From contig JAGNEZ010000060.1 of NCBI GenBank assembly GCA_018003015.1, positions 1 through 36,860 on the forward strand: a DNA stretch of 36,860 bases. The letters run 5' to 3'. Made by a program: the position numbers and the translations under genes. Below are positions 3,480 through 34,500 of the stretch, piece after piece. The first letter of the stretch is position 1, and each line of letters begins with the position of its first letter. The stretch comes from Phycisphaerae bacterium. Its GTDB lineage: Bacteria > Planctomycetota > Phycisphaerae > UBA1845 > PWPN01. The notes under the pieces are model-generated. The model was not told where the DNA came from. It ran no database searches and saw only the letters and a program-made list of their open reading frames with translations.

Positions 3480-4145
3480 TCAGCGGTTCAACTCCCGAAG
3501 GATCTGGAATGCCTCGGCCGCCTTCATCCCAACCACGCTGCCGCGAAAACGGGCCAGGGCCTCGATGGCTTCGATCGAGCGGGCGGGGATAGCCTCGGCG
3601 AGTTGGCTCTTGTATTGGCGCATCGCCGCCAGTTTGGCCGGCAGGGTGGCCTCGATTCTCACGTACCAGTTGGGGTTGAAGACCGGCTCGATGCCGGGGG
3701 CCGACCAGTGGGTTTCGGAGACGGTCTCGTAGCAGGCGATTCGCCCCACCTGGTGACGGCGGCCATCGGGGCGTAAGGCGACCATCGCGGCATCGAAGAT
3801 CTGGCGGTGGTCTTCATGGCGGTCACCTGGGAAGGGGAGCAATACTGTGTCCGGCTTGACCTTGCCGATGAGCGAAGCGAAAGCGGCGTTGAGCTTATGC
3901 TCGGGCATGAGGTGGAGCGTCGTCACCGGCAGATTCATGAAGAGGAGCTGGCTCCCGAGCAGCCTGGCGGCCTTCTTGGCTTCAGTCCGGACCTGGCGGA
4001 CCTGCGAGGCGGGGAAGAGCGGGGTTCCCTTGGTCACGATGGCGACGCTGACGTGGTTGCCTTCAGCGGTCATCCGGGCAATGGTGCCGCCACAACCGAG
4101 AATCTCGTCGTCCGGGTGCGGGGCAATGATCAGAGTGTTGCTCAT
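3480..4145 (-). CDS. PIG-L family N-acetylglucosaminyl deacetylase
   Basis: A 221-residue zinc-dependent de-N-acetylase of the PIG-L/LmbE/BshB family. The canonical AHPDDE-type motif is intact near the N-terminus (APHPDDE, with H10, D12, D13), followed by GCGG. The second metal/catalytic motif is GDRHEDH. Family members remove the acetyl group from GlcNAc-type sugars, leaving a free amine. ATG 4145 is chosen because the first strand starts right after it; GGAG lies upstream, overlapping the end of the preceding gene. It is the last gene of the feoA-feoB-sugar transferase-formyltransferase operon, 10 bases after the formyltransferase. The pairing suggests deacetylation followed by N-formylation of the same sugar. 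Specificity is unknown. Confidence 0.9.
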   Translation of the reverse strand: MSNTLIIAPHPDDEILGCGGTIARMTAEGNHVSVAIVTKGTPLFPASQVRQVRTEAKKAARLLGSQLLFMNLPVTTLHLMPEHKLNAAFASLIGKVKPDTVLLPFPGDRHEDHRQIFDAAMVALRPDGRRHQVGRIACYETVSETHWSAPGIEPVFNPNWYVRIEATLPAKLAAMRQYKSQLAEAIPARSIEAIEALARFRGSVVGMKAAEAFQILRELNR

Positions 4146-4155
4146 GACGGGGATC

Positions 4156-5121
4156 TTACTCCAGTCGCTGACCGGTCGCCAAGCCCGGGTGTGTAGCGGG
4201 ATCGGTTTGGATGTCGGTGAGGTGAAGCAGCCCATCGCCGGTCTGGACGATGGGGCCTTTGTTGTCGATCGCCACGATGGTGCCGGGCAGATGCTGGGTA
4301 TTGGAGCCGGGGACCGGCCTGGCTCGCCAGACGATCAGGTGCGGATGCGTTGGCGGGTTTGGGGAAGCCCTCAGCGGCGCGCGGCCGGTGCGTGAGCGTC
4401 GATCCGCATGGCTGCATTGGGTCGTGAACGCTCCCGGATAGGGGTGGCTGACCGCTCGGATCAAGCGATAGATATCGCTCGCTGGTTGGCGCCAGTCGAT
4501 CCGACCGTCCTCGGGGCGTCGTCGCCCGTACCACGTGGCCTTGCTGTGGTCCTGTGGATGGCGGGGGACCTGCCCGGAGGCGAACGCTGGGCAGAGGTCG
4601 GCCACCATCTGTTCGAGGACGACATTGGTCCGGATGATCAGGTCTATGGCGTAGTCGTCGGGGAAGACGGGCACCGGCCGCTGCTCGACGATGTCGCCGG
4701 CGTCGGGTTCGTCGGTGAGGAAGAAGAGGTTCGCGGCTGCCGGTCGCTGGTTCAGGATGGTCCAGGCGACGGGGGCTCGACCACGACCCTCGGGCAAGGG
4801 GGTTGGGTGGAAGCCGATTGCATCTTGCCGGGCAGCGTCGCGGATTGCGGCGGGGACGAGTTGTGACAGACCGATCACGAACAGCCAGTCGGGTCGATGC
4901 CGCTCGAGAAACGCTTTCACTCGCGGCTCAGTCACCTTGTCGAACGCGAGGTAGGGTGTTCCCCACTGAGCGGCCAGGGGGCGGAGGTCGCGGAAGTCGC
5001 TGATCTTGGCCGCATGCCGCTCATGCAGGCCGCAGACAGCCGTGACTTCGAGCCTCCCGCGGAGCATGCCTTGCAGTGTCGCCACGCTCGAGCTCACGCT
5101 GCCGATGAGTGCGGCGTTCAC
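4156..5121 (-). CDS. Formyltransferase family protein (Fmt-like, probably sugar N-formyltransferase)
   Basis: A 321-residue protein with the folate-dependent formyltransferase core and an Fmt-type C-terminal OB domain (WRARPV and GDGLLHLTD near the end). The core loop reads GFHPTPLPEGRGRAPVAW (residues 103-120), with H105 in the place of the catalytic His and D140 in DAGDI as the catalytic Asp. The usual catalytic Asn (as in NVH or NLH) is Gly here. GRGRAP resembles sugar formyltransferases more than housekeeping Fmt. The start is GTG 5121 with GGAG upstream; it overlaps the sugar transferase stop as GTGA, so translation is probably coupled. No peptide deformylase is nearby, as would be expected for a true initiator-tRNA Fmt. 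It sits between a glycan sugar transferase and a PIG-L deacetylase, so N-formylation of an amino sugar is the best guess. Confidence 0.82.
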   Translation of the reverse strand: MNAALIGSVSSSVATLQGMLRGRLEVTAVCGLHERHAAKISDFRDLRPLAAQWGTPYLAFDKVTEPRVKAFLERHRPDWLFVIGLSQLVPAAIRDAARQDAIGFHPTPLPEGRGRAPVAWTILNQRPAAANLFFLTDEPDAGDIVEQRPVPVFPDDYAIDLIIRTNVVLEQMVADLCPAFASGQVPRHPQDHSKATWYGRRRPEDGRIDWRQPASDIYRLIRAVSHPYPGAFTTQCSHADRRSRTGRAPLRASPNPPTHPHLIVWRARPVPGSNTQHLPGTIVAIDNKGPIVQTGDGLLHLTDIQTDPATHPGLATGQRLE

Positions 5122-5768
5122 GGCTTCGTCTCCGCGAAGGGGCTCTGATCGAACGGTCGGGCAAAGGCCGCTTCGCCAAAGATGACGGTCATGGCGGTCT
5201 TGCACAGGATCATCAGGTCGAGCCCGAAGCTCATGTGGTCCACGTAGTAGATGTCGTAGCGGATTCGCTCGTCCCAGGAGATTGCCGTATTGCCGTTGAC
5301 CTGGGCGAGGCCGGCGATTCCCGGTCGGACCTCCAACCTGCGGCGGCGAAGCGCGTCGTACTGCCTGATCTGCTCCATGATCGTGGGCCGTGGCCCGACC
5401 AGCGACATGTCTCCCCGCAGGACGCTGAAGAGCTGAGGCAACTCGTCGATCTTGGCACGACGGAGGATGCGGCCGACGGGCGTGATGCGGGAATGGCTCA
5501 ACGGGACGACCTCGGTGGGATCATGCACGTGGTCGGCGTACATGGTGCGGAATTTGGCGACTCGGATAGGGTGGCCGCGCAGGCCGCCGCGTTCCTGAAG
5601 GAAGAACACGGGGCCCGGGGAGCTGAGGCGGACGGCCAGGGCGACCAGGAGCCAGACGGGGATGAGGACAACGATCAGAATGAGGCTGGCCGCAAAGTCG
5701 AGCAGGCGTTTGATAGCTGGGTACACGGTCGCGATTATGCCCGGTACGGCCGGATGTGTCCATGGCAT
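5118..5768 (-). CDS. Bacterial sugar transferase (PglC/WcaJ-type phosphoglycosyl transferase)
   Basis: A 216-residue monotopic phosphoglycosyl transferase that moves a sugar-1-phosphate onto a polyprenyl phosphate, the first step of cell-surface glycan assembly. It has one hydrophobic re-entrant helix (about residues 22-46), the FRTM segment (73-76), the catalytic Asp-Glu dyad in KIDELPQL (D108, E109) and the phosphate-binding SLVGPRP (122-128). The length matches the minimal PglC-like core. It starts at ATG 5768, overlapping the feoB stop by one base (TGATG), which implies translational coupling with iron transport. It ends overlapping the formyltransferase start. The sugar substrate is unknown; the two downstream genes suggest an amino sugar. 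Confidence 0.93.
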   Translation of the reverse strand: MPWTHPAVPGIIATVYPAIKRLLDFAASLILIVVLIPVWLLVALAVRLSSPGPVFFLQERGGLRGHPIRVAKFRTMYADHVHDPTEVVPLSHSRITPVGRILRRAKIDELPQLFSVLRGDMSLVGPRPTIMEQIRQYDALRRRRLEVRPGIAGLAQVNGNTAISWDERIRYDIYYVDHMSFGLDLMILCKTAMTVIFGEAAFARPFDQSPFAETKP

Positions 5769-7978
5769 CAGAAGCCCATGGCCGTGCCCGTCTGGTAGAC
5801 CAGAACGGTGGCGAGATAGGCCAGCAAGCTCATGTAGCCGATCATGAAGGCGGGCCATCGCCAGGTTCCGGTTTCGGTGTGAACGACGGCGATCGTGCTG
5901 AGGCATTGGCAGGCCAGGGCGAAGAAGATGAGCAGGGCGATGGCCGTCAGGGGGGTGAAGAGTGGCCGGCCGTCCGGCCAGGTCGCGGCTCGGAGCTTGT
6001 CGCGGAGGGCGGGCGAGTGAGCATCGGTGTCGGCGCCGCCACATACGATGCTCATGGTGCTCACGAAGAGCTCGCGGGCGGCGAAGCTGCTCATCAGGCC
6101 CACGCCAATCTGCCAGTTGAATCCCATCGGCCGGAGGAACGGTTCGAACGCACGGCCAAGCTGGCCGGCGAAGCTGCCGCCAAGCCGATCGCGGCTTTCC
6201 TGTTGGCTCAATTCGCTCATCTGCTGCTCCAACTCGGCGTGCGGGACCAGGGCCGACTTGGCTTCGACGGCTGCCCGTTGCCTGGCGAATTGGGCCGCTC
6301 GGTCGCTGCTCCACGGATAGTGCGTGAGTGCCCAAATCACGATCGTGGCGGCCAGGATGATCGTGCCGGCCTTGGTGAGGAACAGCTTGCCGCGGTCCCA
6401 GGCCGCCAGCAGCACAGCCGTAGGGCGGGGCATCCGGTAGGGTGGCAGCTCGATGATGAAGCCGGAGTCGGGGCCGCGAAGCAGGGTGCGCTTGAACAGC
6501 TTGGCCACGGCGAAACCCGCAGCCACACCGAACGCGTAAAGGCACAGGAGGGCTGCCCCCTGAAACCACGCGCTGGTAGGCAGGCATGCTCCGATCAGCA
6601 GGGCGTAAACGGGCAACCGGGCGCTGCAGCTCATGAAAGGGGCGGCCAGGATGGTGGCCAGACGGTCGCGCGGATTCTCGATGGTCCGGGTGGCCATGAT
6701 TCCGGGCACCGCGCAGGCGTGGCAGGAGAGCAACGGAATGAAGCTCTTGCCGTTCAGACCGACCTTGGTCATCACCCTGTTCATGAGAAAGGCCGCCCGG
6801 GCCATGTAGCCGGAGTCTTCCAGGAAGGCCATGAACAGAAACAGGATACAAACCTGTGGGAAGAAGGCGAGCACTGCTCCCACGCCGGCGATGATGCCGT
6901 CACTGAGCAAGTCGCGCAGGACACCGGAGGGCAGGTGGACGATGGTTTGGTCTCGCAGCCATCCGGAGCATGCGTCGATGAGGCTGATCAGGGGCGCGGC
7001 TGCCGCAAACAATCCACAGAACACCGCGGCCATGATGGCGGCAAAGAAGGCATAGCCATAGATCCGGTGGGTCAGAAGCCGATCCAGGCGATCGGTCGCC
7101 GACGCGGCGGTCTCGTGCCGAGCACCCGTCATGCAGGTATTGACGACTTCCCGAAGCCAGTCGTAACGGCGGCGGATGATCTCGGCCGAAGGATCATCGG
7201 TGCCTTCCGCGCCGGCAAGCCGCTGGGTGTCGAGCAAGGACTGCTGCACGGAAGGGGGTAGGTGGTTCTGAGTTGAGACCTCGGCGTGACAGAGCAGAAG
7301 CAGGGCAGTGCCCTCTGCGGTTGCCGGATCAGTGTGTCCCGCCGCCATCATTGAATCGGCGATGGTCTTGACGGCGGCCTCGATCCGCGGGCTCGCGGAC
7401 CATCGTCGTGACGGGCGAGGTCGGTCGCTCACGCGGGCCCGCGTGACCGCGGCGTGGAGATGGTCTACTCCCTTGCCCGAGGAGCCGACCGTCCCGATGA
7501 CTTCCACGCCGAGTTGCTCGCCCAGCCTGGTGAGGTCAAGGTGACACCCGGATCGCTCGACCTGATCGATCATGTTGCAGGCCAGAACGACGGGCAGTCC
7601 AAGCTCGATGACTTGACCCGCCAAGAAGAGGTTTCGCTCCAGGTTGGACGCGTCGGCGACCAGCAGGACGGCGTCGGGCCTGGGTGTATCCGCGGCATGG
7701 CCGAGGAGGACGTCCCGAACGATGGCTTCGTCGGGACTGGTCGAGGCAAGGCTATAGGTTCCTGGTAGATCTACGACCCTTATGGATGGATCGCCGACCA
7801 GGTGGCCTTCACGCTTCTCGACGGTGACGCCCGCGTAGTTGCCGACCTTGTGCCGGGATCCGGTCAGGGCGTTGAACAGGGTGGTCTTGCCACAATTGGG
7901 GTTGCCAACCATCGCGACCCGGAAGAGCCGGGTGGTGGTGGCGGAGTGCCGATCCTCCGCAAGGGCGGGAATGGTCAT
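5768..7978 (-). CDS. feoB: Ferrous iron transporter FeoB
   Basis: A 736-residue inner-membrane Fe(II) permease with a cytosolic G domain. G1 is GNPNCGKT (25-32), the G2 Thr lies in GVTVE, G3 is DLPG (70-73), G4 is NMID (135-138) and G5 lies in VGSSGKG. The membrane part has two Gate regions with the conserved cysteines, in SCHACAVPGIMATRT and PFMSCSARLPVYAL. Length is usual for the family. ATG 7978 overlaps the feoA stop as ATGA, and the end overlaps the next gene's start. No FeoC was found. Transcription starts upstream of feoA and the palindrome there is a candidate iron-responsive operator. Confidence 0.97.
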   Translation of the reverse strand: MTIPALAEDRHSATTTRLFRVAMVGNPNCGKTTLFNALTGSRHKVGNYAGVTVEKREGHLVGDPSIRVVDLPGTYSLASTSPDEAIVRDVLLGHAADTPRPDAVLLVADASNLERNLFLAGQVIELGLPVVLACNMIDQVERSGCHLDLTRLGEQLGVEVIGTVGSSGKGVDHLHAAVTRARVSDRPRPSRRWSASPRIEAAVKTIADSMMAAGHTDPATAEGTALLLLCHAEVSTQNHLPPSVQQSLLDTQRLAGAEGTDDPSAEIIRRRYDWLREVVNTCMTGARHETAASATDRLDRLLTHRIYGYAFFAAIMAAVFCGLFAAAAPLISLIDACSGWLRDQTIVHLPSGVLRDLLSDGIIAGVGAVLAFFPQVCILFLFMAFLEDSGYMARAAFLMNRVMTKVGLNGKSFIPLLSCHACAVPGIMATRTIENPRDRLATILAAPFMSCSARLPVYALLIGACLPTSAWFQGAALLCLYAFGVAAGFAVAKLFKRTLLRGPDSGFIIELPPYRMPRPTAVLLAAWDRGKLFLTKAGTIILAATIVIWALTHYPWSSDRAAQFARQRAAVEAKSALVPHAELEQQMSELSQQESRDRLGGSFAGQLGRAFEPFLRPMGFNWQIGVGLMSSFAARELFVSTMSIVCGGADTDAHSPALRDKLRAATWPDGRPLFTPLTAIALLIFFALACQCLSTIAVVHTETGTWRWPAFMIGYMSLLAYLATVLVYQTGTAMGF

Positions 7979-8999: not shown

Positions 9000-9668
9000 C
9001 TAGAGGGCGCGGCTGACAAGGTGTGTGACGACACCTTGGATGGAAAAGTCCTGCGTTTCGTCGATGACCATGGGAGGCGTGTCGGGGTTGTCGCCCCGAA
9101 GGATCACGAATTGCGAGGAGGAGCGGCGTTCGACGGACACGCGCTTGAGCGTGGGGTTGCCGTCGACCAGGCACGCGCAGATTCGGCCCTGGATGTGCTC
9201 GGGTCTCACGCCGGGTCGGTACTCGACGAGGACCAGATCGCCAGGTTTGAGGGTTGGCTCCATCGAGTCGAAGTTGAGGCGGAGGCAGTATCGGTTGGGG
9301 CTCCACAGGTGGCGAAGTACGGGGAACATCTCGGTCTGTTCCTGACTCTGAGTCGGAGGTCCGGCCGGGATGGTGCCGAACAAGGGGAGATCGACGGTGT
9401 CAAGCGGCTGGGGTGTATCGTGGTCCGCGCTCTCCCCGATGAGCACTGCAGGTGGGACATCCAGGGCCAGGGCAATGGCTTTCAGGGAGGAGGGTGAGGG
9501 GTTGCGGCGGCCGCGCTCGATCTCGCTGAGAAAGCCCTGGTTGACCTTGGCTTGCCGGGCGAGGGCGGTCTGATTCAGGCCGATTCTCTCACGATAGAAC
9601 CGAATCCGCTGACCGATGTGGCCGCGAAACGCCGCCGGCTCATGGTACTTGGCCGTCATGTGAGGCAT
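9000..9668 (-). CDS. LexA-like XRE-family repressor with S24 self-cleaving peptidase domain
   Basis: A 222-residue transcriptional repressor. Residues about 17-70 form an XRE/Cro helix-turn-helix (LNQTALARQAKVNQGFLSEI, then ERGRRNPSP). The C-terminal half is a LexA/UmuD/CI-type S24 peptidase: possible cleavage site Ala102-Gly103 in GTIPAGPP, nucleophile Ser135 in FDSMEPTLKPGD and catalytic Lys175 in NPTLKRVS. Such proteins cleave themselves when RecA filaments form, so it may be an SOS or stress switch; it resembles phage CI-type repressors more than canonical LexA, whose HTH is of a different class. No phage genes surround it. ATG 9668 has only a weak AGG upstream; a promoter-like pair overlapping this codon hints that ATG 9659 is the true start. 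Confidence 0.88.
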   Translation of the reverse strand: MPHMTAKYHEPAAFRGHIGQRIRFYRERIGLNQTALARQAKVNQGFLSEIERGRRNPSPSSLKAIALALDVPPAVLIGESADHDTPQPLDTVDLPLFGTIPAGPPTQSQEQTEMFPVLRHLWSPNRYCLRLNFDSMEPTLKPGDLVLVEYRPGVRPEHIQGRICACLVDGNPTLKRVSVERRSSSQFVILRGDNPDTPPMVIDETQDFSIQGVVTHLVSRAL

Positions 9669-9695
9669 TATGAGAACCTGAGCGGTTTCAGTAAA
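9667..9695 (-). promoter_or_regulatory. Possible promoter overlapping the repressor start codon
   Basis: On the minus strand TTTACT (9695-9690) and CATAAT (9672-9667) are 17 bases apart. The -10 overlaps ATG 9668, and a start about seven bases later would fall at ATG 9659, giving a leaderless mRNA. Confidence 0.4.
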
Positions 9696-9861
9696 GAACG
9701 TATTCCCGAGTGGTGATGGGGAACGCCGCAGCGAGCCAACTGAAGGAGAGGGGGGCGAGGTTCAACTGCTTGCCTGGTTGTGCCTGGTGAGCCGTGCGGG
9801 GCGTGGTCGGCGAGCTCGCAGCGTGAGCGGGCCGAAGACCGTCGAATGGTGTTATGGCCTC

Positions 9862-10335
9862 CTATCGCTTGGCCATCGCCATGATGCGCGACTTGACAGA
9901 TCCAATGAGAGTGACTCGCAGTCCAAAATTCTCGCCTACCTTGACGGCCTGGCCGCGCCCGATGCACTTGTTGTTGATCATCAGGTCGAGCTCGGTGTCG
10001 GCGGGTTTCTCGAATTCGATGATGGCTCCCGTGGTCAGACTGACGATCTCCGAAAGAGGCATGCTTCGTTCGGCGAGTTGGACGATCACGGGCACGTGGA
10101 GCTTGAGTACCCTGGAGACGTTGGCTCTGTGGGGCGTGCCTGCGGATGCTCCGTTTTCAGGGATGTCTGCTCGGCGTGGCCCTGGCGGAGCGGCTGCTGA
10201 TGGAGCGGGGGCCATTCCGGCCAAGGGATCGGAGCCGTCGGCAGGCTGGTCGCCCAGGATGTCCGCGACCGCTTGATCGGCAAGCGAGTTCACCTCGGCG
10301 AGCAGGGCGTCGATATCCTCTTGCGTCTCGGGCAT
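9862..10335 (-). CDS. FliN/FliM C-terminal (SpoA) domain protein, flagellar switch-like
   Basis: A 157-residue protein with a FliN-like layout. The N-terminal QEDIDALLAEV resembles the EIDALL-type tip of FliM/FliN. A Pro/Ala-rich linker follows (about residues 35-65), then the SpoA domain from VLKLHVPVIVQLAE through LSLTTGAIIEFEK-like sequence to GENFGLRVTLIGS. FliN forms the C-ring of the flagellar motor or, in type III secretion, the sorting platform. ATG 10335 is chosen because the family N-terminus begins there; ATG 10383 would add 16 residues and has a GGGGG upstream. It lies 123 bases after fabF in the same direction, with no other flagellar gene in the window. Confidence 0.82.
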   Translation of the reverse strand: MPETQEDIDALLAEVNSLADQAVADILGDQPADGSDPLAGMAPAPSAAAPPGPRRADIPENGASAGTPHRANVSRVLKLHVPVIVQLAERSMPLSEIVSLTTGAIIEFEKPADTELDLMINNKCIGRGQAVKVGENFGLRVTLIGSVKSRIMAMAKR

Positions 10336-25740: not shown

Positions 25741-27030
25741 GTGCGGGTAGCCGCTGCAACCAGGATGGCCGAAGGACAAGCATGTGCCGGGGGGGTGACA
25801 GAACGGACCGACGCCTCGCCTTCCGGCGGTCGCGTGTCCGCGCCGCGTGCCCTGCTGTGCGCGGCGAGTCGTCTCTCACATGGGTTGGTGGTCATCCGCG
25901 ATCTCCTCGGCTTGAGAAGTGGCCGGGTGGAAGACCGCATCCACCTTCAGGCGGCCATGGCGTGGCTTGCCCGAGCCCACGATGCAGCCGGCGGATGGGG
26001 CGTCTCGGCCGGCTACTACTTCGCCTCCGGATGGCTCCCGCCGTACCCGGAAACCACCGGTTATATCATCGGTACCGCGATGCGCTACGCGGAGTTCGCG
26101 GACGACGAACAGTGGACCGATCGAGCGATGCGCATGGGTGACTGGGAGATCCAGGTACAACTGCCCGGCGGAGGAGTGCGCGGCCAGATCGGACTGAACG
26201 ATTTCCCCATCGTGTTCAATACCGGCCAGGTTACTCTCGGCTGGGTCGAGCTGTTCCTGAACACGAGCGAGCAGAAGTACCTGGATGCCGCCGTGCGGGC
26301 GGGGGACTGGCTGTGCGCTGTCCAGGACGTCGACGGCAAATGGAGCACATCCGACCACGCCGGCGTTCCGCACGCCTATCAGTCGCGGGTGGCGTGGCCG
26401 CTGTTCGAGCTGGCCAAGGCCTCCGGAAACGTTGAATACCGGCGGTCAGCCGAGAAGTGCATCGAGTGGGTTCTGTCGAAGGTCCAGCCCAACGGCTGGA
26501 TCGAGCACATGGCTTTCCTGCCTGGGCAGAATCCATATACGCACACCATCGTCTATACGCTCCGAGGGCTGCTTGAGTCTTCGGCTTACCTCGGGGATGC
26601 CGATCGGGGACGCGTGCGGGGTGTCGTACGGCGCGCCGCCGAAACGCTGCTCATGAACTACGAGCTGTCCAAGCGTGATCCGTACGGCCCACCGGCCGAT
26701 CTGCCCGGCCAGTTCGATGAACACTGGCGACCGGCTGCGAAGTACAGTTGTCTCACTGGAGACTGCCAGTTGTCCATCCTGTGGCACAAGCTGTACGCGA
26801 TGACTGGCGATCCTCGGTTCACGAACGCAGCCCTCAAACTGATGGACCAGGTGAAGGCCACGCAGAAGCTGCGATCGGGCAACCCCGGCATCCGGGGAGC
26901 GATCGCCGGCTCCTGCCCGATCTGGGGCGGCTACGAGCGGTTCGGGTATCCCAACTGGGCAGCCAAGTTCTTCGCCGACGCGATCATGGCCCAGGAGGAG
27001 ACCCTGGCGCAGATCGGAGGGCGGCCGTGA
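25741..27030 (+). CDS. Alpha/alpha-toroid protein, possibly glycan-acting
   Basis: A 429-residue protein with repeated helix pairs of the (alpha/alpha)6 toroid type seen in terpene cyclase-like, glycoside hydrolase and polysaccharide lyase folds. Motifs include GGWGVSAGYYF, PPYPETTGYIIGT, FNTGQVTLGWVELF, PHAYQSRVAWPLFELA and NPYTHTIVYTLRGLLESS. The last resembles proteins found in exopolysaccharide clusters, but I could not name a characterised member or active-site residues. No clear signal peptide is visible. GTG 25741 follows the DUF4870 stop by four bases; ATG 25765 is the alternative and neither has a strong ribosome-binding site. The gene overlaps the formyltransferase start, suggesting a glycan role. 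Confidence 0.7.
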   Translation: MRVAAATRMAEGQACAGGVTERTDASPSGGRVSAPRALLCAASRLSHGLVVIRDLLGLRSGRVEDRIHLQAAMAWLARAHDAAGGWGVSAGYYFASGWLPPYPETTGYIIGTAMRYAEFADDEQWTDRAMRMGDWEIQVQLPGGGVRGQIGLNDFPIVFNTGQVTLGWVELFLNTSEQKYLDAAVRAGDWLCAVQDVDGKWSTSDHAGVPHAYQSRVAWPLFELAKASGNVEYRRSAEKCIEWVLSKVQPNGWIEHMAFLPGQNPYTHTIVYTLRGLLESSAYLGDADRGRVRGVVRRAAETLLMNYELSKRDPYGPPADLPGQFDEHWRPAAKYSCLTGDCQLSILWHKLYAMTGDPRFTNAALKLMDQVKATQKLRSGNPGIRGAIAGSCPIWGGYERFGYPNWAAKFFADAIMAQEETLAQIGGRP

Positions 27031-27833
27031 AGCTGGGCCTCGTCTCGCCGGCCGACGACAATCTCTATGCCGCCACCTTGCTTGCGGCGCTGGCGGCATC
27101 GGGCGACACGCCCTGTCTGGTGATCTCCACCCATCGTTCCCGGTTTGCCCGGGCCATGGCGTATGTCGGACAGCACGGCTGGCGAGCCTTCTTTCGTCGC
27201 CTGCTCGAAGAGGCGGATCTTGCCGAAGCGGGTCCTGCCAGTGTCAGGCGATGCCTTCAGGCACTGTCCGCCAGCCGCGGCTTTCAGGACTGGGACCGCC
27301 CGCTCTCGCGAAGCTGCCAGGTGATGGGCATCGAGTATCTGCACGCGTCGAGCGTGAATGCCCCGGTGGCCGTTGAAGCGGTGCGGCGGAACCGGGTGGA
27401 CGTGCTGCTCAGTGCCGTGGCTGAGCTGTATCGCTCGCCCATGATCGAGGCCCCAACGATCGGGATTCTCAATGCCCACATGGCCTTGCTGCCTCGCTTT
27501 CGGGGCATGAACGCGCTGGAATGGAGCGTGCTGCTCGGGCAGACCATCGGGGTCACGATTCACTTCGTGGCTCATCGTGTCGACACCGGTGCGATCGTGC
27601 TGCGCCGCGCGATGGAGGTCGCGCCCGGCGATACGCTGGACACGCTGCGAGCCAGGTCGATGGCGGTCAACGTCGAGCTGATGATCGAAGCGGTGAGCAG
27701 CCTCAAGGCGGATCCGGCCGGCCGTCGGGAGCCGTGTGCAGGCGAGGGCCAGCAGTATTTCGTCATGCACGCCCGGCTGAAGGAGATCGTCCGTCAGAAG
27801 ATCAGCACCGGCTCGGTTTCGACCGGCAGGTAA
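27027..27833 (+). CDS. Formyltransferase family protein (second copy)
   Basis: A 268-residue protein whose C-terminal two thirds match the folate-dependent formyltransferase core. The catalytic Asn-His-Asp triad appears as N149 and H151 in LNAHMALLPRFRG and D186 in HRVDTGAI. There is no Fmt-type C-terminal OB domain, so it is not a methionyl-tRNA formyltransferase and more likely modifies an amino sugar or other amine. The start is GTG 27027 with GGAGG seven bases upstream; it overlaps the toroid-gene stop as GTGA. Its end overlaps the convergent PIG-L gene by 40 bases. Low identity to the first formyltransferase in the window shows they are not recent duplicates. Confidence 0.8.
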   Translation: MKLGLVSPADDNLYAATLLAALAASGDTPCLVISTHRSRFARAMAYVGQHGWRAFFRRLLEEADLAEAGPASVRRCLQALSASRGFQDWDRPLSRSCQVMGIEYLHASSVNAPVAVEAVRRNRVDVLLSAVAELYRSPMIEAPTIGILNAHMALLPRFRGMNALEWSVLLGQTIGVTIHFVAHRVDTGAIVLRRAMEVAPGDTLDTLRARSMAVNVELMIEAVSSLKADPAGRREPCAGEGQQYFVMHARLKEIVRQKISTGSVSTGR

Positions 27834-28525
27834 GCCACTTTGCGTTTTCGCGAAATCGGCGGCAGACTGACCGTGACGGCGTACTTGACACCGACCTCGG
27901 CCCCGTGCTGAGCGGCCAGCCCGGTGTAGTAGTGCAGGTAATTGAACGACACCTCGCCGCGCAGCAGTTGGTGCTCGCGGCACCCGGCCACCCAGGTCTC
28001 GAACACGTCGGTGACATCCAGCCACAGGTCCGGGTGGTAGTCCTCCAGGTCCTCCCAGTTCTCGAGGTAGTACAGACCGCGGATCAAGTGGGCCGGTTCG
28101 GTTCGCTTGATGCCGGGCAGAGCGGCCAGGAACCCGCCTTCCATGGTGATGTTGTAGGCCGCCCGGTGATCGCGATGGTACGAACCCCGCCAGTGAGTGA
28201 GCACGATGTCCGGCTTGAGGCGGCGGATGAGATCGCACATTTCGTAGATGGTCTTCTCATTGCTCTGCAGCTCGCCGTCCGGATGGTCGAGGACGATGCA
28301 CTCGGCGGCGCCAAACTTCCTGGCCGCGGCCTCAGCCTCGCGAATTCGCTGGCGGCGGTACTCGAGGTGGTCCATCCGCGGGTTGCCTTTCTCGCCGGCG
28401 GTCATGTGCAGAACCGTCGCCCGGTGGCCCGCTGCGGCGTACCTGCTGACCAACAGCCCGGCAGTGATTTCCGCGTCGCCGATATGGGCTCCGATCGCCA
28501 GGAGATGCAGCTTCTTGCCGGGCAT
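27794..28525 (-). CDS. PIG-L family protein with variant HIGD metal motif
   Basis: A 243-residue member of the PIG-L/LmbE deacetylase family. The expected AHPDD motif is AHIGD here (H14, I15, G16, D17), so the two zinc-ligand positions (His and second Asp) remain, while the Asp that acts as catalytic base in MshB/BshB aligns with Gly. The downstream zinc-ligand motif is kept as YHRDH. It may use another residue as base, or bind rather than cleave. The start at ATG 28525 has GGAGG eight bases upstream. It converges on the second formyltransferase with a 40-base tail overlap. It follows the M3 peptidase by 50 bases on the same strand. Confidence 0.85.
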   Translation of the reverse strand: MPGKKLHLLAIGAHIGDAEITAGLLVSRYAAAGHRATVLHMTAGEKGNPRMDHLEYRRQRIREAEAAARKFGAAECIVLDHPDGELQSNEKTIYEMCDLIRRLKPDIVLTHWRGSYHRDHRAAYNITMEGGFLAALPGIKRTEPAHLIRGLYYLENWEDLEDYHPDLWLDVTDVFETWVAGCREHQLLRGEVSFNYLHYYTGLAAQHGAEVGVKYAVTVSLPPISRKRKVAYLPVETEPVLIF

Positions 28526-28575
28526 GGTTGCGTCCTCCACAGAACCCTGGCGTCCGGCCCGGGCCGGACGCAGGC

Positions 28576-30288
28576 TCATTCGGGCAGTCGGGCCAGTTCC
28601 GCCTGGACGGCCTCAATCAGCGGCCGGAGCGTGGCCTCGCCGAAATCGAACTTCAGGCCGGCCGCCTGCCACAGTTCCGGCAACGGCCGGCTTCCGCCCA
28701 GAGCCTGGGCCGCCTTGTACTGGGCCAGGGCCTTCCTGGGGTCCTTCTTGGCGTTCTGCCAGAGCTGCAGGGCTCCGACCTGGGCGATGCCGTACTCGAT
28801 GTAGTAGAACGGGACGCTGAACAGGTGCAGCTGCCGGTGCCACAAGGCCCCCTTCGCGGTCTCGTACCCGCTCCAATCCTCGATGCCGCCGAAACGATCC
28901 TGAAGCTCGAGCCAGGCCCTGGTTCGCTCCTCCCGCGTATGGTTGGGGTGCAGGTAGATCCAATGCTGGAACGCGTCGATGGTCGCGATCCAGGGGAAAA
29001 TCATGAGCGTGTCCTCGAACTGCTCACGCTTGGCCCGGATCAGATCGTCACCCTTGTAGAACTCGTCCAGGTAATCGAAGGCCAGCATCTCCATGCCCAT
29101 GGAGGAGACCTCGGCCATCTCCATGCCGTAGTGCCGATATGCCATGAGCGGCTCGCTTCGGCAGGCGATGGCGTGGAAAGCATGCCCGCCCTCGTGCAGG
29201 AGCGTCATGACATCGCTGTGCAGGCCAACCGCGTTCATGAAGATGAACGGGTGGCGGTGCTCGTCAAAGGTCGATTGATAGCCGCCCGGTGCCTTTCCTT
29301 TGCGGCTATCCAGGTCCAGCCACTTGGCCTTGATCATCGCGTCGAACTGTCTGCCCAGCTCCGGGTCGAGGCGGTGAAACACCCTCGCGGTCTTCTCGCA
29401 GAACTCGGGAATCGCCTGAAACGGCTTGAGCGCCGGCCGGTTCCTGGGATCGACGAGCACGTCCCAGGGCCGGAGCCGATCCACGCCCAGGCTCTTACGT
29501 CGCTGTTCCTGAAGGGCCCGCCTGGCCGGGACGACGATCTTCGCAATCGCGTCGTGGAAGGCCATGCAGTCCTTGGGGCCGTAGTCGAATCGCTGATAGG
29601 CCTGGAACTGGTAGTCGCGGAAGTTGTCATAATCCGCGTTCTTGGCGATCTGCTGGCGGATACGGACCAACTGATCGAAGATGGCATCGATCTTGTCGCG
29701 GTCCTGCAGTCGGCGCTCGGCCACCAGGACCCAGGTCTTCTCGCGGACGGCGCGATCGGGATCTCTCTGGTACCTGCCCATCTGCTGCAGGGTCTGTTCC
29801 TTGCCGTCGTATTGAACGGTCATGGCGGCGCAGAGCTTCTTGTACTGCTGGTCGAGCTTGTCGTCCTCGGTTTGGAGGGGGACGTTTTTCTCGCGGAACA
29901 GCTTCACGGCCGCGGTCGTGCTGCGATCGTACACGAAGTACCGCGGCATGGGCAGCCTGGCCCGGATCGGCGAGGCGACATATCGCTCCTGGAGCTTCTG
30001 CCAGCGGGGTTTGCATTTCGGCTCGATCTGCTCGAGGAAATGGAGATGAGCCTTCTCCTTGGCCGGGTCGTCGGTCTGGCAGGTCATGGCCACGCGACGT
30101 CGGGTTCCCTCCTCCTGGATGCAGGCCTCCAGGTCGCTCTGGTCGAGGAGCCACTGCTGGAACTGCTCAGCCGTCTCCAGCGGCCGGCGGTCGAGTTCAT
30201 CGAAGAGCGGCTCGATCTGGGCCCAGTCGCCCATGTCCGCGGCCGCCTGCACGTACTGCCGTGAATACTGAACGTCCATTGCGTCCAT
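28576..30288 (-). CDS. M3 family oligoendopeptidase (PepF-like)
   Basis: A 570-residue zinc metallopeptidase that cuts short peptides in the cytoplasm. The HExxH motif is HEGGH at 365-369 (TLLHEGGHAFHAI); the third zinc ligand Glu lies in the following AEVSSMGMEML region. Size and domain order fit the M3B oligoendopeptidase group. ATG 30288 has AAGGAG eight bases upstream; a longer in-frame version would extend into repeat-like intergenic sequence. It lies between purQ and a PIG-L gene on the same strand. Confidence 0.94.
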   Translation of the reverse strand: MDAMDVQYSRQYVQAAADMGDWAQIEPLFDELDRRPLETAEQFQQWLLDQSDLEACIQEEGTRRRVAMTCQTDDPAKEKAHLHFLEQIEPKCKPRWQKLQERYVASPIRARLPMPRYFVYDRSTTAAVKLFREKNVPLQTEDDKLDQQYKKLCAAMTVQYDGKEQTLQQMGRYQRDPDRAVREKTWVLVAERRLQDRDKIDAIFDQLVRIRQQIAKNADYDNFRDYQFQAYQRFDYGPKDCMAFHDAIAKIVVPARRALQEQRRKSLGVDRLRPWDVLVDPRNRPALKPFQAIPEFCEKTARVFHRLDPELGRQFDAMIKAKWLDLDSRKGKAPGGYQSTFDEHRHPFIFMNAVGLHSDVMTLLHEGGHAFHAIACRSEPLMAYRHYGMEMAEVSSMGMEMLAFDYLDEFYKGDDLIRAKREQFEDTLMIFPWIATIDAFQHWIYLHPNHTREERTRAWLELQDRFGGIEDWSGYETAKGALWHRQLHLFSVPFYYIEYGIAQVGALQLWQNAKKDPRKALAQYKAAQALGGSRPLPELWQAAGLKFDFGEATLRPLIEAVQAELARLPE

Positions 30289-30431: not shown

Positions 30432-31223
30432 TCAAAGCGATTTCGCCGTCCGGACCGCGGTTTCAAAGACCACGCGCCCGTCCGCCGCGGCCTTCGGTCG
30501 TCGCGTCCACTCCGGGTGCTGAGTTGGACACACGTGGCGCTCGGGGTGGGGCATAAGGCCGAGGATTCGGCCGGTGGCGTCGATCAGGCCGGCAATGTCC
30601 GCCTGGCTGCCGTTGGGGTTGACCGGGTAAGGGCCGGACTGGCCCTCGGCGTCGCAGTAGGTCAGGGCAATGTGCCCGCAGTTCTTGAGTTGGGCGAGGA
30701 CGCTATCGTCCGCAGCCACCAGCTTGCCCTCGCCGTGGGCGATGGGCATGGCCAGGATCGCTCCGTCGGGCAGGAACGCGCATTGCCGCCAGCATCGCAA
30801 GTGAATCCACCGAGCCTCGAATCGAGCCGAGTCGTTCTGCGTGAGTGTAACCGTCTGGCCGTTACCTGACGTGGCCGATTGCCCGGGCACTGCTCCGGGC
30901 AGCAGCCCGGCCTTGACCAGGACCTGGAATCCGTTGCAGATGCCCAGAATCAGCTTGCCGGCGGCCAGGAAACTCTGAAGGGCGTCGGCCAGGTGGTGAA
31001 CCATCTGGTTGGCCAGAATCTTGCCCGCGGAGATGTCGTCGCCGTAGCTGAAGCCACCCGGGATGGTTAGAATCGCGTAGTCCTTGAGCCGATCCGGGTG
31101 ACCGGCGAGCTCGCGGATATGGACGCGTTCCGTCTCGGCTCCGGCCAGTTGCCAGGCGTGAGCGGTCTCTTCGTCGCAGTTGGTGCCCGCGGTACGGAGG
31201 ATCATGACCTTCGGCTTGCTCAT
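30432..31223 (-). CDS. purQ: Phosphoribosylformylglycinamidine synthase glutaminase subunit PurQ
   Basis: A 263-residue class I glutamine amidotransferase that supplies ammonia to PurL in purine synthesis. Catalytic Cys96 in GICNGFQVL, with H226 and E228 in MPHPERH, form the triad; RTAGTNCDEE and PGGFSYGDD are further PurQ signatures. Its length (263) is at the long end for PurQ. The PurS and PurL partners are not in this window. The TTGCAT-17-TAGACT promoter lies so close that the mRNA may have almost no leader, and no ribosome-binding site is visible before ATG 31223. Confidence 0.95.
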   Translation of the reverse strand: MSKPKVMILRTAGTNCDEETAHAWQLAGAETERVHIRELAGHPDRLKDYAILTIPGGFSYGDDISAGKILANQMVHHLADALQSFLAAGKLILGICNGFQVLVKAGLLPGAVPGQSATSGNGQTVTLTQNDSARFEARWIHLRCWRQCAFLPDGAILAMPIAHGEGKLVAADDSVLAQLKNCGHIALTYCDAEGQSGPYPVNPNGSQADIAGLIDATGRILGLMPHPERHVCPTQHPEWTRRPKAAADGRVVFETAVRTAKSL

Positions 31224-31232
31224 GCGGACAAG

Positions 31233-31261
31233 AGTCTAGGGTACAATGGCGTTGGATGCAA
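31233..31261 (-). promoter_or_regulatory. Probable purQ promoter, nearly leaderless
   Basis: On the minus strand TTGCAT (31261-31256) and TAGACT (31238-31233) are 17 bases apart. A start about seven bases after the -10 falls within a few bases of ATG 31223. Confidence 0.5.
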
Positions 31262-31316
31262 CGAGGGAGTCTCGCCGTCACGCGGCGCCCAGGGGGTTCC
31301 AAGTGAGGAGAATCCG

Positions 31317-32912
31317 TTGAGATCGTATACGGCCCGCAAGATCGTTCAGATCCTCGCGATCCTTGTCTGTCTCGCTGGAGGGATCGTCAGCCACCAGCTC
31401 ACCCTCAAGCATCTCCCGGCGTCGGGAACCAAGACGTGGGTCGACAGGGTCTGCACCGCCTTTGAGACGTCGAGCTGCGACGAAGTGATCAAGAGCCGGT
31501 GGTCCGAGCTGCACCTCAATATCGGGAAGGTGCACCTGGGCATGCCGACCGCCCAGGCGGGGGTCGTCTTCTTCGCTTTCATGCTCTGCTGGTTCGTGTT
31601 CATCGGTCCGGTGACCGCCCGGCGGTGGGGGCTCCACTTCATCGGGACCCTCGTGGCCACCGTAGGGCTTGGGTTCGCCGTGTTCTTCGATGTCGTCATG
31701 TTTCTCACCTTGCCCAAGTGGTGCCCGCTCTGCGCGACCACCCATGTGGCCAGCCTGCTGGTGTTCCTCTTCATGCTGCTGCTGTGGCCGCGGCGAGCGG
31801 CGGCAAGGAGCGTTCCGGTCATACCCGCCCTGGGGGCGGCGGGTTCTTCCCTGTTTGATGAGTCGGGCAAGGCTGCCGGCGGCCCGCCCCAGGCAGCCCA
31901 GGCGGTCCCCTACGCGATGATGAGAGGGGCCCCCGGCGCCTGGTCGCTGGAGGATGCTCGGCCCCGCTGGACCGCGGTGCTGACCGTGGCGGTCGTGGCC
32001 TTCCTGATCGTCTTCGTCCAGCACCTGTTTGTCCTGACGCTGTCGGCCAATCAGCGGGTCAAGGCCGGTGAGACCTGGGCCAAGTACTGGGAGTCCCGGT
32101 TCAAGGAGTACGACAACTACTGGCAACACACGTTCACCTCGTGGTTGATCATGCCCCGTGTGACCTTCGAGCTCGAAGGCGTGCCCATTCGAGGCCCGGC
32201 GAACGCTCCCCATACCATGGTCATTTTCGGCGATTTCCAGTGCCCGGCCTGCGCTCTGTTTGAGACTCAGCTGAACGAATGGATCGTGCCCACCGCGAAC
32301 AAAGACTACGGCGGCCTCAGGGTGGTCTTCAAACACTGGCCGATCAGCCCCGGGTGCAACAAGTACACGGCAGTGGACCGGCATCCCAAGGCGTGCATCG
32401 CCGCGCGGGCGGCGGAGGCGGCCAGGCTGGTCGGCGGCGACGACGCGTTCTGGAGGATGCACGACCTGCTTTTTGCCTCTCGGGAAGCACTCAAGGATGC
32501 CGACGAGAAGTGGTATGTCCAGAAAGGACAGGAGCTTGGCCTGAACGCGGATGCCTTCCGCGAGGCGATGACCAGCAAGGAAGCGGCCGATCGGATAGCG
32601 GCCGATGTGCGCGAAGGCGAGACCCTCGGCATGAAGATCATCGAGGATCCCCAGAAGGCCACGGGGGGCAAGGAGACCGACCCCGCGGTCGCCAAGGTGG
32701 ATTCCACGCCGGCGATCTACGTCGACGGCAAGAAGGTGCGCAGTACGCACCACAAGCAGATGTGGAAGATGATCCTGGGTTCGGGCAGAGTCCCGCCACG
32801 GCCGGCGGCGAACCCGAGCCCCGGTCCCGGCATCGGCCCGTTGCGCCCTCCGGAAGCCCCGACCCAGGGCGTTGGCCCGCTCCGCCCGCCGGAGACCGGA
32901 CAGACTCGCTAG
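31317..32912 (+). CDS. VKOR-DsbA fusion protein (vitamin K epoxide reductase plus thioredoxin-like), CPAC type
   Basis: A 531-residue membrane protein for oxidative folding of exported proteins. The VKOR part (about 1-160) has four or five helices, a loop cysteine pair C46/C54 (SSCDEV) and the quinone-side WCPLC pair C136/C139. After a variable linker and another helix (219-240), a periplasmic DsbA-like thioredoxin domain has CPAC (309-312). The Pro-rich C-terminus carries two copies of the nonamer G(I/V)GPLRPPE (505-513, 518-526). TTG 31317 is chosen because TGAGGAG lies six bases before it and the first helix starts right after; in-frame sequence upstream overlaps purQ antisense. It sits next to a second, divergent copy. 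Confidence 0.9.
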   Translation: MRSYTARKIVQILAILVCLAGGIVSHQLTLKHLPASGTKTWVDRVCTAFETSSCDEVIKSRWSELHLNIGKVHLGMPTAQAGVVFFAFMLCWFVFIGPVTARRWGLHFIGTLVATVGLGFAVFFDVVMFLTLPKWCPLCATTHVASLLVFLFMLLLWPRRAAARSVPVIPALGAAGSSLFDESGKAAGGPPQAAQAVPYAMMRGAPGAWSLEDARPRWTAVLTVAVVAFLIVFVQHLFVLTLSANQRVKAGETWAKYWESRFKEYDNYWQHTFTSWLIMPRVTFELEGVPIRGPANAPHTMVIFGDFQCPACALFETQLNEWIVPTANKDYGGLRVVFKHWPISPGCNKYTAVDRHPKACIAARAAEAARLVGGDDAFWRMHDLLFASREALKDADEKWYVQKGQELGLNADAFREAMTSKEAADRIAADVREGETLGMKIIEDPQKATGGKETDPAVAKVDSTPAIYVDGKKVRSTHHKQMWKMILGSGRVPPRPAANPSPGPGIGPLRPPEAPTQGVGPLRPPETGQTR

Positions 32913-33027: not shown

Positions 33028-34500
33028 ATGCGGAACTCAGCGTTGGCCCGAGTGGGCATTCTCTTGGCCGTGCTGCTGTCTCTCTTCGGCCTGACGGTGA
33101 GCGCCATCCTGCTTCAGCACCACGTGGTCATCCTGATCGGGGGTGATCCCGTTCTGGGTCGACTGTGCGAAGCCGACTACGCCAGTTGCGACGAGGTATT
33201 GAGCAGCAAATGGAGCAGGCTGTTTGGGCTTCCGGTCGCCATGTGGGGCTTCTTCTTCTTCTCCGCGATGTCGGCGTGGTACCTGGTCATCGGCCGCCCG
33301 ACTGGTTCCCGTCGCTGGCTCCATGGGCTGCCCCTGCTGGCGACCGGCGCGGGGACGCTGGGCGTGATCGGCCTGGCGATCATCATGTACGGGGTGATCA
33401 AGGGCTTCTGTCCCTTCTGTGCGGCCACCCACGTGACCACGCTGCTGCTTTTCATCGTCACCTTTCTGCTGCGACCTCGTCAAGCGGCTTCGCAGGCGAT
33501 CCTCTCCGCCGGGTCCACGCCCGCCCGAGCGGAAACGGACGCGGCCGTTCCAGCCCATCCTTCCCGGAGACTGGTCTCTGCGGCGGTCCTCCTGGCCGTG
33601 ATGACGTCTTTCGTCGGATGGAGCGAATACGGCCGCCGGCTCCAATCCAGCTATGCCCGCGAGTACCAGAAGCGATGGCAGGAGTATGAGAACCTCCTGG
33701 CCTCGTCGCGCAAGGCGAGCGAGGATCAAGAGGCGGGCTTTGCTGTGGAAAGGAAGCAATGGGAGGCGCAGGAGGCTCTGCTCAAGGGTGTCTATGACAA
33801 GTTCATGGCCCAGGAGGTGGTGGATCTGCCGCTGACCGCCGATGATCCCATTCGCGGGGACACGAACGCCCCGCACACCATCATCGTCTATTCGGACTTC
33901 CAGTGCCCCTGGTGCAAGACGCTCGCGGATATCCTCGACAAGAAGATGCAGGAGTATCCGGGCAGGTTCCGCGTCGCCTTTCGCCACTTCCCGATGGACA
34001 AGTTGTGCAACCCCGACATCTCCCAGACCCTCCACCCCGGTGCGTGCCCGGCTGCGGTGACGGCCGAAGCCGCTCGGCTGCTCGGCGGTCCCGAGGCGTT
34101 CTGGAAGACCCATGATGCCCTCTTCGCCGACCAGAAGGCCTTCCGCGCCGGCGCCCAGAAGTTCGTGAAGGACCACGCCCTGACACTGGGCATCGACCCC
34201 GAGGCCTTCTGGAAGAAGGCGACGGGCTCGACCTCGACCTGGAACCGCGTCAAGGAGGATGTGAAGAAGGCCACCGAACTGGGCACCAGGTCAACGCCTG
34301 CGGTGTATCTGGACGGCCGCAAGTTCGACCGTTACGGCGACGAGTACTTCTGGCGGTACATGTTCGGACTCGAAGACCAGGGCAAGAGCCTGGAGAGCGT
34401 TGGTCGTGCGGTTCCGACAACTCGGCCGGACACAACTCCCATCTCAATGCCCTCCTCCCGGCCGGCCTTGCCTCGGTCCGAATCGGCGGCGAGTCCGTGA
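33028..34500 (+). CDS. VKOR-DsbA fusion protein, CPWC type (tandem paralogue)
   Basis: A 490-residue paralogue of the preceding gene with the same layout. The VKOR domain has C47/C54 (ASCDEV) and FCPFC (C128/C131); the linker has a transmembrane helix (about 181-198) and a coiled region rich in Gln/Glu (210-260); the DsbA-like domain has CPWC (293-296). Both copies keep an extra Cys pair in the helical insertion (LCNPD and HPGAC). The C-terminus is Ser/Thr/Pro-rich. ATG 33028 has GAGAGG upstream. The gap of 115 bases to the first copy has no clear promoter. Two copies with different active-site dipeptides suggest different redox roles. Confidence 0.9.
   Translation: MRNSALARVGILLAVLLSLFGLTVSAILLQHHVVILIGGDPVLGRLCEADYASCDEVLSSKWSRLFGLPVAMWGFFFFSAMSAWYLVIGRPTGSRRWLHGLPLLATGAGTLGVIGLAIIMYGVIKGFCPFCAATHVTTLLLFIVTFLLRPRQAASQAILSAGSTPARAETDAAVPAHPSRRLVSAAVLLAVMTSFVGWSEYGRRLQSSYAREYQKRWQEYENLLASSRKASEDQEAGFAVERKQWEAQEALLKGVYDKFMAQEVVDLPLTADDPIRGDTNAPHTIIVYSDFQCPWCKTLADILDKKMQEYPGRFRVAFRHFPMDKLCNPDISQTLHPGACPAAVTAEAARLLGGPEAFWKTHDALFADQKAFRAGAQKFVKDHALTLGIDPEAFWKKATGSTSTWNRVKEDVKKATELGTRSTPAVYLDGRKFDRYGDEYFWRYMFGLEDQGKSLESVGRAVPTTRPDTTPISMPSSRPALPRSESAASP

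Follow-up and report, generated by a model that had tools for sequence, protein, structure and literature searches.

A formyltransferase without the catalytic asparagine and its PIG-L partner: a conserved gene pair that may exchange N-acetyl for N-formyl on bacterial diamino sugars

The DNA analysed here (the window) is a stretch of 36,860 nucleotides from a Phycisphaerae bacterium of the Planctomycetota (contig JAGNEZ010000060.1). Three complete open reading frames follow one another on its minus strand: a phosphoglycosyl transferase (PGT; positions 5118–5768, from an ATG at 5768 to a TGA at 5118, 216 residues), a formyltransferase (FT; 4156–5121, from a GTG at 5121 to a stop at 4156, 321 residues) and a PIG-L family protein (PIG-L; 3480–4145, from an ATG at 4145 to a stop at 3480, 221 residues). 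Directly upstream lies feoB (5768–7978, also on the minus strand), which was recognised from its sequence. The feoB stop overlaps the PGT start at 5768 (TGATG), the PGT stop overlaps the FT start at 5121 (GTGA), and 10 bases separate FT from PIG-L, giving the tightly packed order feoB-PGT-FT-PIG-L. An earlier sequence-only reading had described a PGT, an Fmt-like formyltransferase and an intact PIG-L deacetylase encoded by overlapping or adjacent genes; the overlaps, the short gap and Pfam matches far above cut-off bear out this layout, and PGT-FT-PIG-L is confirmed as a genuine gene unit. FeoB shares the transcriptional direction of the trio and is outside the functional unit. FeoAB was rejected as a functional partner because the unit adjoins unrelated genes in relatives (LacI, URO-D, aconitase, phospholipase or radical-SAM genes). 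Both in the window and in Phycisphaerae, the unit is isolated among unrelated genes.

The PGT is a small monotopic phosphoglycosyl transferase of the PglC type: its Bac_transf match (5e-62, far above the Pfam cut-off) spans nearly the whole protein, there is no large N-terminal transmembrane region, and it scores below the cut-offs for EPS_sugtrans and WcaJ. Its best solved relative in the PDB is N,N'-diacetylbacillosaminyl-1-phosphate transferase (6e-40). This likens the trio to the PglC/bacillosamine pathway, as do the homologues of PglD, PglE and PglF that flank it in several phyla, although bacillosamine (Pgl) pathways as described contain neither FT nor PIG-L. Four members of the window's family that lack FT and PIG-L (G006, G007, G010 and G011) carry orthologues of the PGT that are 59–63% identical, with neither gene adjoining. 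Because these FT-negative relatives keep the PGT alone, the FT/PIG-L pair looks like an add-on to a pre-existing PGT-primed pathway.

PIG-L matches PF02585 at 3e-26, far above the cut-off, and belongs to this family by its HPDDE motif, its second zinc-binding histidine and its fold. The zinc site is intact, as had been claimed from the sequence, with H10, D12, D13, E14, D108, D112 and H113 invariant across 49 relatives. The predicted structure (pLDDT 95) matches BshB with a Z score of 27.1 (2.6 Å over 205 residues), diacetylchitobiose deacetylase with 24 and MshB with 20; the match at rank 5, the GalB hydratase, has the same fold and is not a deacetylase. BshB, diacetylchitobiose deacetylase and MshB share the fold and zinc-site residues of PIG-L but have other genomic partners, and a score of 82.6 bits against the BshB1 model (cut-off 182.5) predicts that PIG-L is not the bacillithiol enzyme. 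Characterised PIG-L enzymes remove acetyl groups at C2 of glucosamine units, and family membership suggests that the protein in the window is a zinc-dependent N-deacetylase of a C2 acetamido sugar.

FT is a member of the formyltransferase superfamily (PF00551/PF02911) by its fold and by the retained His105 and Asp140, with Pfam matches far above the cut-offs (Formyl_trans_C, 3e-18; Formyl_trans_N, 1e-8). RefSeq names such proteins "methionyl-tRNA formyltransferase" or "formyltransferase family protein". Identity with Fmt was rejected, and with it the possibility that FT is the sole Fmt of its genome: FT reaches 95.2 bits against TIGR00460 (cut-off 201.5), it groups with its relatives separately from both Fmt and Arn-type enzymes, and one of the five Formyl_trans_N genes of its own genome, on contig C59, is a separate fmt (222.6 bits against the same cut-off). 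FT resembles ArnA/PRK06988 more than it does Fmt. Among solved structures, ArnA transformylases come nearest to it in both sequence and fold, and its model (pLDDT 93) finds its best PDB match in one of them (2bln; E 8e-29, 25% identity). PRK06988 is the best NCBIfam match, at 171.2 bits against a cut-off of 316 (147–186 bits for members of the FT clade), and this score together with a glycine, Gly103, in place of the asparagine places FT outside the ArnA/PRK06988 formyltransferases. FT and ArnA share a two-domain fold and the His and Asp residues, and ArnA modifies a sugar amine within a pathway linked to undecaprenyl; FT differs in its active-site signature, in its separate clade and in having PIG-L as partner rather than ArnB, ArnC and ArnD. 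The label "Fmt-like" passes over the question of which reaction FT catalyses, since FT sits in a clade without the catalytic asparagine.

In the final alignment, glycine replaces the asparagine in all 85 clade members, His105 and Asp140 are invariant, and Gly84, Ser86, Gln87 and Pro106 are invariant or nearly so. The signature N-x-H-G-S becomes G-x-H-P-[TAS], with Thr, Ala or Ser at the position equivalent to Ser108, and FastTree gives the clade that unites all G-x-H FTs a support of 0.875. Catalysis by FMT, ArnA and GART has been described as depending crucially on the asparagine of the N-x-H motif, whereas FDH has Ile104 at this position and hydrolyses 10-formyl-tetrahydrofolate (10-formyl-THF) instead (PMC4388273). 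In a local match, the active-site stretch of FT is best matched in the PDB by FDH, the N-terminal hydrolase domain of ALDH1L1, which likewise lacks the asparagine and shares Ser-Gln and His-Pro; unlike FT, FDH has Ile rather than Gly, and it is a hydrolase of animal folate metabolism that supplies a carrier domain, with no sugar context. Because the catalytic asparagine is missing, formyl transfer by FT from 10-formyl-THF to an amine is uncertain. Another Asn-less type was seen in a Planctomycetota genome (locus L138 of G073), where a formyltransferase with Val at the Asn position (FVFHDSLLP) has no PIG-L nearby.

Six genomes belonging to the window's family have the trio in the same order. 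Relatives were sought more widely in GTDB species genomes and annotated plasmids, from which the best 80 loci were kept, so that the counts are not frequencies; 64 relatives of the FT clade were examined among them. PIG-L lies within about 7 kb of FT in 55 of these 64, and directly downstream on the same strand, at no more than 300 bases, in 52. The full PGT-FT-PIG-L order is found in 38 of the 64 by a strict distance rule (39 with L029). Cultured bacteria that carry the trio include Ruegeria, Roseibium and Psychrobacter. Hosts include Planctomycetota, Alpha-, Beta- and Gammaproteobacteria, Bacillota, the actinobacterium Adlercreutzia, Bacteroidota, a cyanobacterium and Opitutia; the gene order proposed from the single window is thus conserved, and beyond Planctomycetota. 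The claim of a coupled three-gene unit holds in that the order recurs, but the conserved core is the FT/PIG-L pair and not the trio: a PGT is absent beside about half of the pairs, including all those in legionaminic-acid clusters.

The partnership is also apparent in draws of some 1,270 genomes (392 Planctomycetota, 289 from the class of a Ruegeria, 296 from the phylum of a Flavobacteriaceae MAG and 299 from the phylum of a Clostridia MAG). PIG-L lies within 1.5 kb of all 27 G-x-H FTs (one of which, at L157, reads GYHP) and of none of the 32 other FTs (Fisher p 2e-17, ignoring relatedness). Unlike the locus counts above, the draws yield frequencies: the G-x-H family is rare, being present in 5, 4, 7 and 11 genomes of the four draws with the centre genomes counted; for Planctomycetota the best 30 matches were read as loci, and weaker members may be missed. 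Distances among FTs correlate with those among PIG-L proteins (r 0.73; shuffled maximum 0.15), which supports the partnership without proving it because shared host ancestry contributes to the correlation.

Several G-x-H FTs of Rhizobiaceae have no PIG-L within 7 kb and adjoin ATP-grasp and HAD genes or a dehydratase; their role may be different from that of paired FTs. ATP-grasp and HAD genes are common neighbours in Alphaproteobacteria and only a handful of other hosts, and were rejected as obligatory parts of the system. Neighbourhood clusters that consisted of antisense shadow ORFs were dropped from the analysis. Two loci have unusual layouts. On a plasmid of Ruegeria sp. B32 (L186; NZ_CP081107.1, 2602–21459), about 9 kb of identical genes are mirrored around a second FT gene, the result either of an extensive inverted duplication or of faulty assembly. 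In Salinicoccus kekensis (L049, 8629–10378), the trio is followed by a second formyltransferase and a polysaccharide-deacetylase-like protein, the latter with no Pfam match at the threshold used.

The pair occurs in two pathway contexts. In class I, found in several phyla, it adjoins a PGT, often with genes for PglD, a PglE-like DegT protein and a PglF-like 4,6-dehydratase (for example L053, L061, L181 and L184). In class II, it is surrounded by LegB, LegC, NeuC, NeuB and often NeuD in the arrangement LegB-LegC-NeuC-FT-PIG-L-NeuB; the order met most often is NeuC-FT-PIG-L (L177, L178, L182 and L183). The LegB, LegC, NeuB and NeuC proteins tested score above their NCBIfam equivalog cut-offs, and class II forms one separate subclade with support of 1.0 in both the FT and the PIG-L trees. 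Common to both classes is a 2,4-diacetamido-2,4,6-trideoxyhexose scaffold made from UDP-GlcNAc, and in several clusters of each a C4 acetyltransferase (PglD or NeuD) lies beside the pair. One legionaminic cluster from the Bacteroidota-phylum draw, L182, encodes a separate N-x-H formyltransferase after LegC, where LegH would be expected (9080–9973, minus strand), besides the G-x-H FT after NeuC; its product is possibly a di-N-formyl legionaminic acid.

The genome from which the window derives encodes homologues of PglF (contig C19, 41% identity), PglE (C29, 49%) and PglD (C23, 36%), which makes UDP-2,4-diacetamido-2,4,6-trideoxyglucose (UDP-diNAcBac) a plausible metabolite. These genes are dispersed on separate contigs and are also present in FT-negative relatives, so that alone they do not prove the substrate. 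The PglF-like gene on C19 was considered as part of a second sugar cluster and rejected, its neighbours being unrelated (CheB, a histidine kinase, LpxB and a HemN-like protein).

We consider it fairly probable that the unit swaps the C2 N-acetyl group for N-formyl on a diamino-sugar scaffold built on UDP-GlcNAc. In the window's organism, the PglF-, PglE- and PglD-like enzymes encoded elsewhere would produce UDP-diNAcBac, and the PGT, as its family suggests, would transfer the sugar phosphate to undecaprenyl phosphate. PIG-L, given its family, its intact zinc site and the logic of the pathway, would hydrolyse the C2 N-acetyl, and FT would formylate the freed amine from 10-formyl-THF to give a 2-formamido sugar; PIG-L and FT could act on either the UDP-linked or the lipid-linked sugar. 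In legionaminic-acid pathways, the same pair would do the same job, the C2 nitrogen becoming N5, on C5 of legionaminic acid. Since PglD or NeuD coexists with FT and PIG-L, the only new amine available to the pair would be the one that PIG-L frees, and the assignment to C2 follows from the need for this extra amine and from the C2 N-acetyl specificity of PIG-L enzymes. Deacetylation followed by N-formylation for a lipid-linked glycan, as the sequence-only reading had it, stays the best account of the chemistry, but since so many pairs have no PGT beside them, this chemistry is not confined to lipid-linked glycans. The missing asparagine of FT and the Rhizobiaceae FTs that have no PIG-L nearby weigh against the proposed exchange, and we know of no glycan structure from an organism that carries the trio.

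The nearest chemical precedent is archaeal. 5-N-formyl-legionaminic acid is known from Halorubrum sp. PV6 and its virus HRPV-1, and the Halorubrum gene cluster (GenBank MH673034) places a putative formyltransferase (HrrPV6_1050) between legG (1049) and neuD (1051), followed by an unnamed gene (1052) and legI (1053) (PMC6137143). As in the proposed exchange, the formyl group is carried by the nitrogen that stems from C2 of GlcNAc, and the published order legG-FT-neuD can be likened to NeuC-FT-PIG-L-NeuB-NeuD of L183 and L178. In contrast to the bacterial clusters, no deacetylase is named, and the loss of the N-acetyl group is given no explanation (PMC6137143). We predict that gene 1052 or a neighbour encodes a PIG-L protein; a search of the plasmid collection for haloarchaeal homologues found none.

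Three other readings of the pair were weighed. If the unit worked like ArnA, ArnC and ArnD in the handling of L-Ara4N, FT would formylate a sugar amine (for example at C4) as protection for the PGT and PIG-L would remove the formyl group after lipid transfer, leaving a free amine on the final sugar. Such a scheme would fit the ancestry of FT, whose nearest characterised relative in sequence and fold is ArnA, the presence of both a PGT and an N-acyl hydrolase in the unit, and the ATP-grasp ligases found downstream in many alphaproteobacterial clusters, for which a free amine could be a substrate. We regard it as unlikely, given that several clusters encode a PglD/NeuD acetyltransferase as well as the pair, that legionaminic clusters have no lipid transfer step needing protection, and that FTs found with DegT in Arn-like loci are all of the N-x-H kind and without PIG-L. 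ArnD and PIG-L also belong to different families. The one known product, 5-N-formyl-legionaminic acid, retains its formyl group (PMC6137143).

The missing asparagine raises the question of whether FT formylates sugar amines at all: it might transfer another acyl group, hydrolyse 10-formyl-THF or serve as a sugar-binding partner of PIG-L, with another N-acyl sugar or a free amine as the product. The Asn-to-Gly change throughout the clade, with its accompanying near-invariant residues, and the local resemblance to the Asn-less hydrolase FDH point this way, as does the loss of activity in FDH when Ile104 is replaced by Asn, which leaves less than 10% of the hydrolase activity (PMC4388273). Set against this are the retention of His105, Asp140 and the ArnA-like fold with its C-terminal domain, the Thr, Ala or Ser at the Ser108-equivalent position, which speaks against FDH-like hydrolysis, and the existence of a legionaminic acid formylated at N5; this reading too is improbable. 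Least credible, with only a slight chance of being correct, is a swap at C4 or on another N-acetyl hexosamine such as GlcNAc, with the DegT and PglF genes incidental. The isolation of the unit in the window and in Phycisphaerae would agree with it, and variation in the C4 acyl group of bacillosamine-type sugars is on record from marine bacteria (PMC3210612). Linkage to LegB, LegC, NeuC and NeuB or to PglD, PglE and PglF in other phyla weighs against it, however, as do the nearest folds of PIG-L, whose characterised enzymes (BshB, Dac and MshB) act on C2 N-acyl glucosamines, and the known product, which is formylated at the C2-equivalent N5.

Within the favoured acetyl-to-formyl exchange, a more general proposal has about an even chance of being right: that the Asn-less FTs are a subclass that works only with PIG-L, the two together exchanging the C2 N-acetyl for formyl on 2,4-diamino sugars in both contexts with a catalytic arrangement that Fmt, ArnA and PurN do not share. 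Every component comes from a known superfamily and the combination appears to be new: no published description of a PIG-L and formyltransferase pair was found in the open-access literature. Sugars that carry N-formyl at the position arising from C2 of GlcNAc have been identified chemically, and the papers found offer no explanation of how the acetyl group of GlcNAc-derived sugars is lost before N-formylation. The pair gives a testable answer to the origin of the formyl groups on some bacterial sugars, and the G-x-H-P signature with its near-constant PIG-L neighbour would make formamido sugars predictable from genomes in several phyla. It also puts right the frequent naming of such proteins as methionyl-tRNA formyltransferase, and raises the enzymological question of how formyl transfer could proceed without an asparagine held to be crucial in the superfamily.

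The window contains further genes of related families. A second PIG-L protein (27794–28579, minus strand) scores above the Pfam cut-off, has a degenerate motif (AHIGDAE against PHPDDE) and is probably inactive as a deacetylase; in the sister genome, a match lies at the equivalent position. Its gene is convergent, with a slight overlap, with that of a second sugar-type formyltransferase (about 27030–27833, plus strand) of the ordinary N-x-H kind (NAHMALLP). Further along the plus strand, two neighbouring genes (31098–32912 and 33028–34500) each encode a vitamin K epoxide reductase (VKOR) domain fused to a DsbA-like thioredoxin domain.
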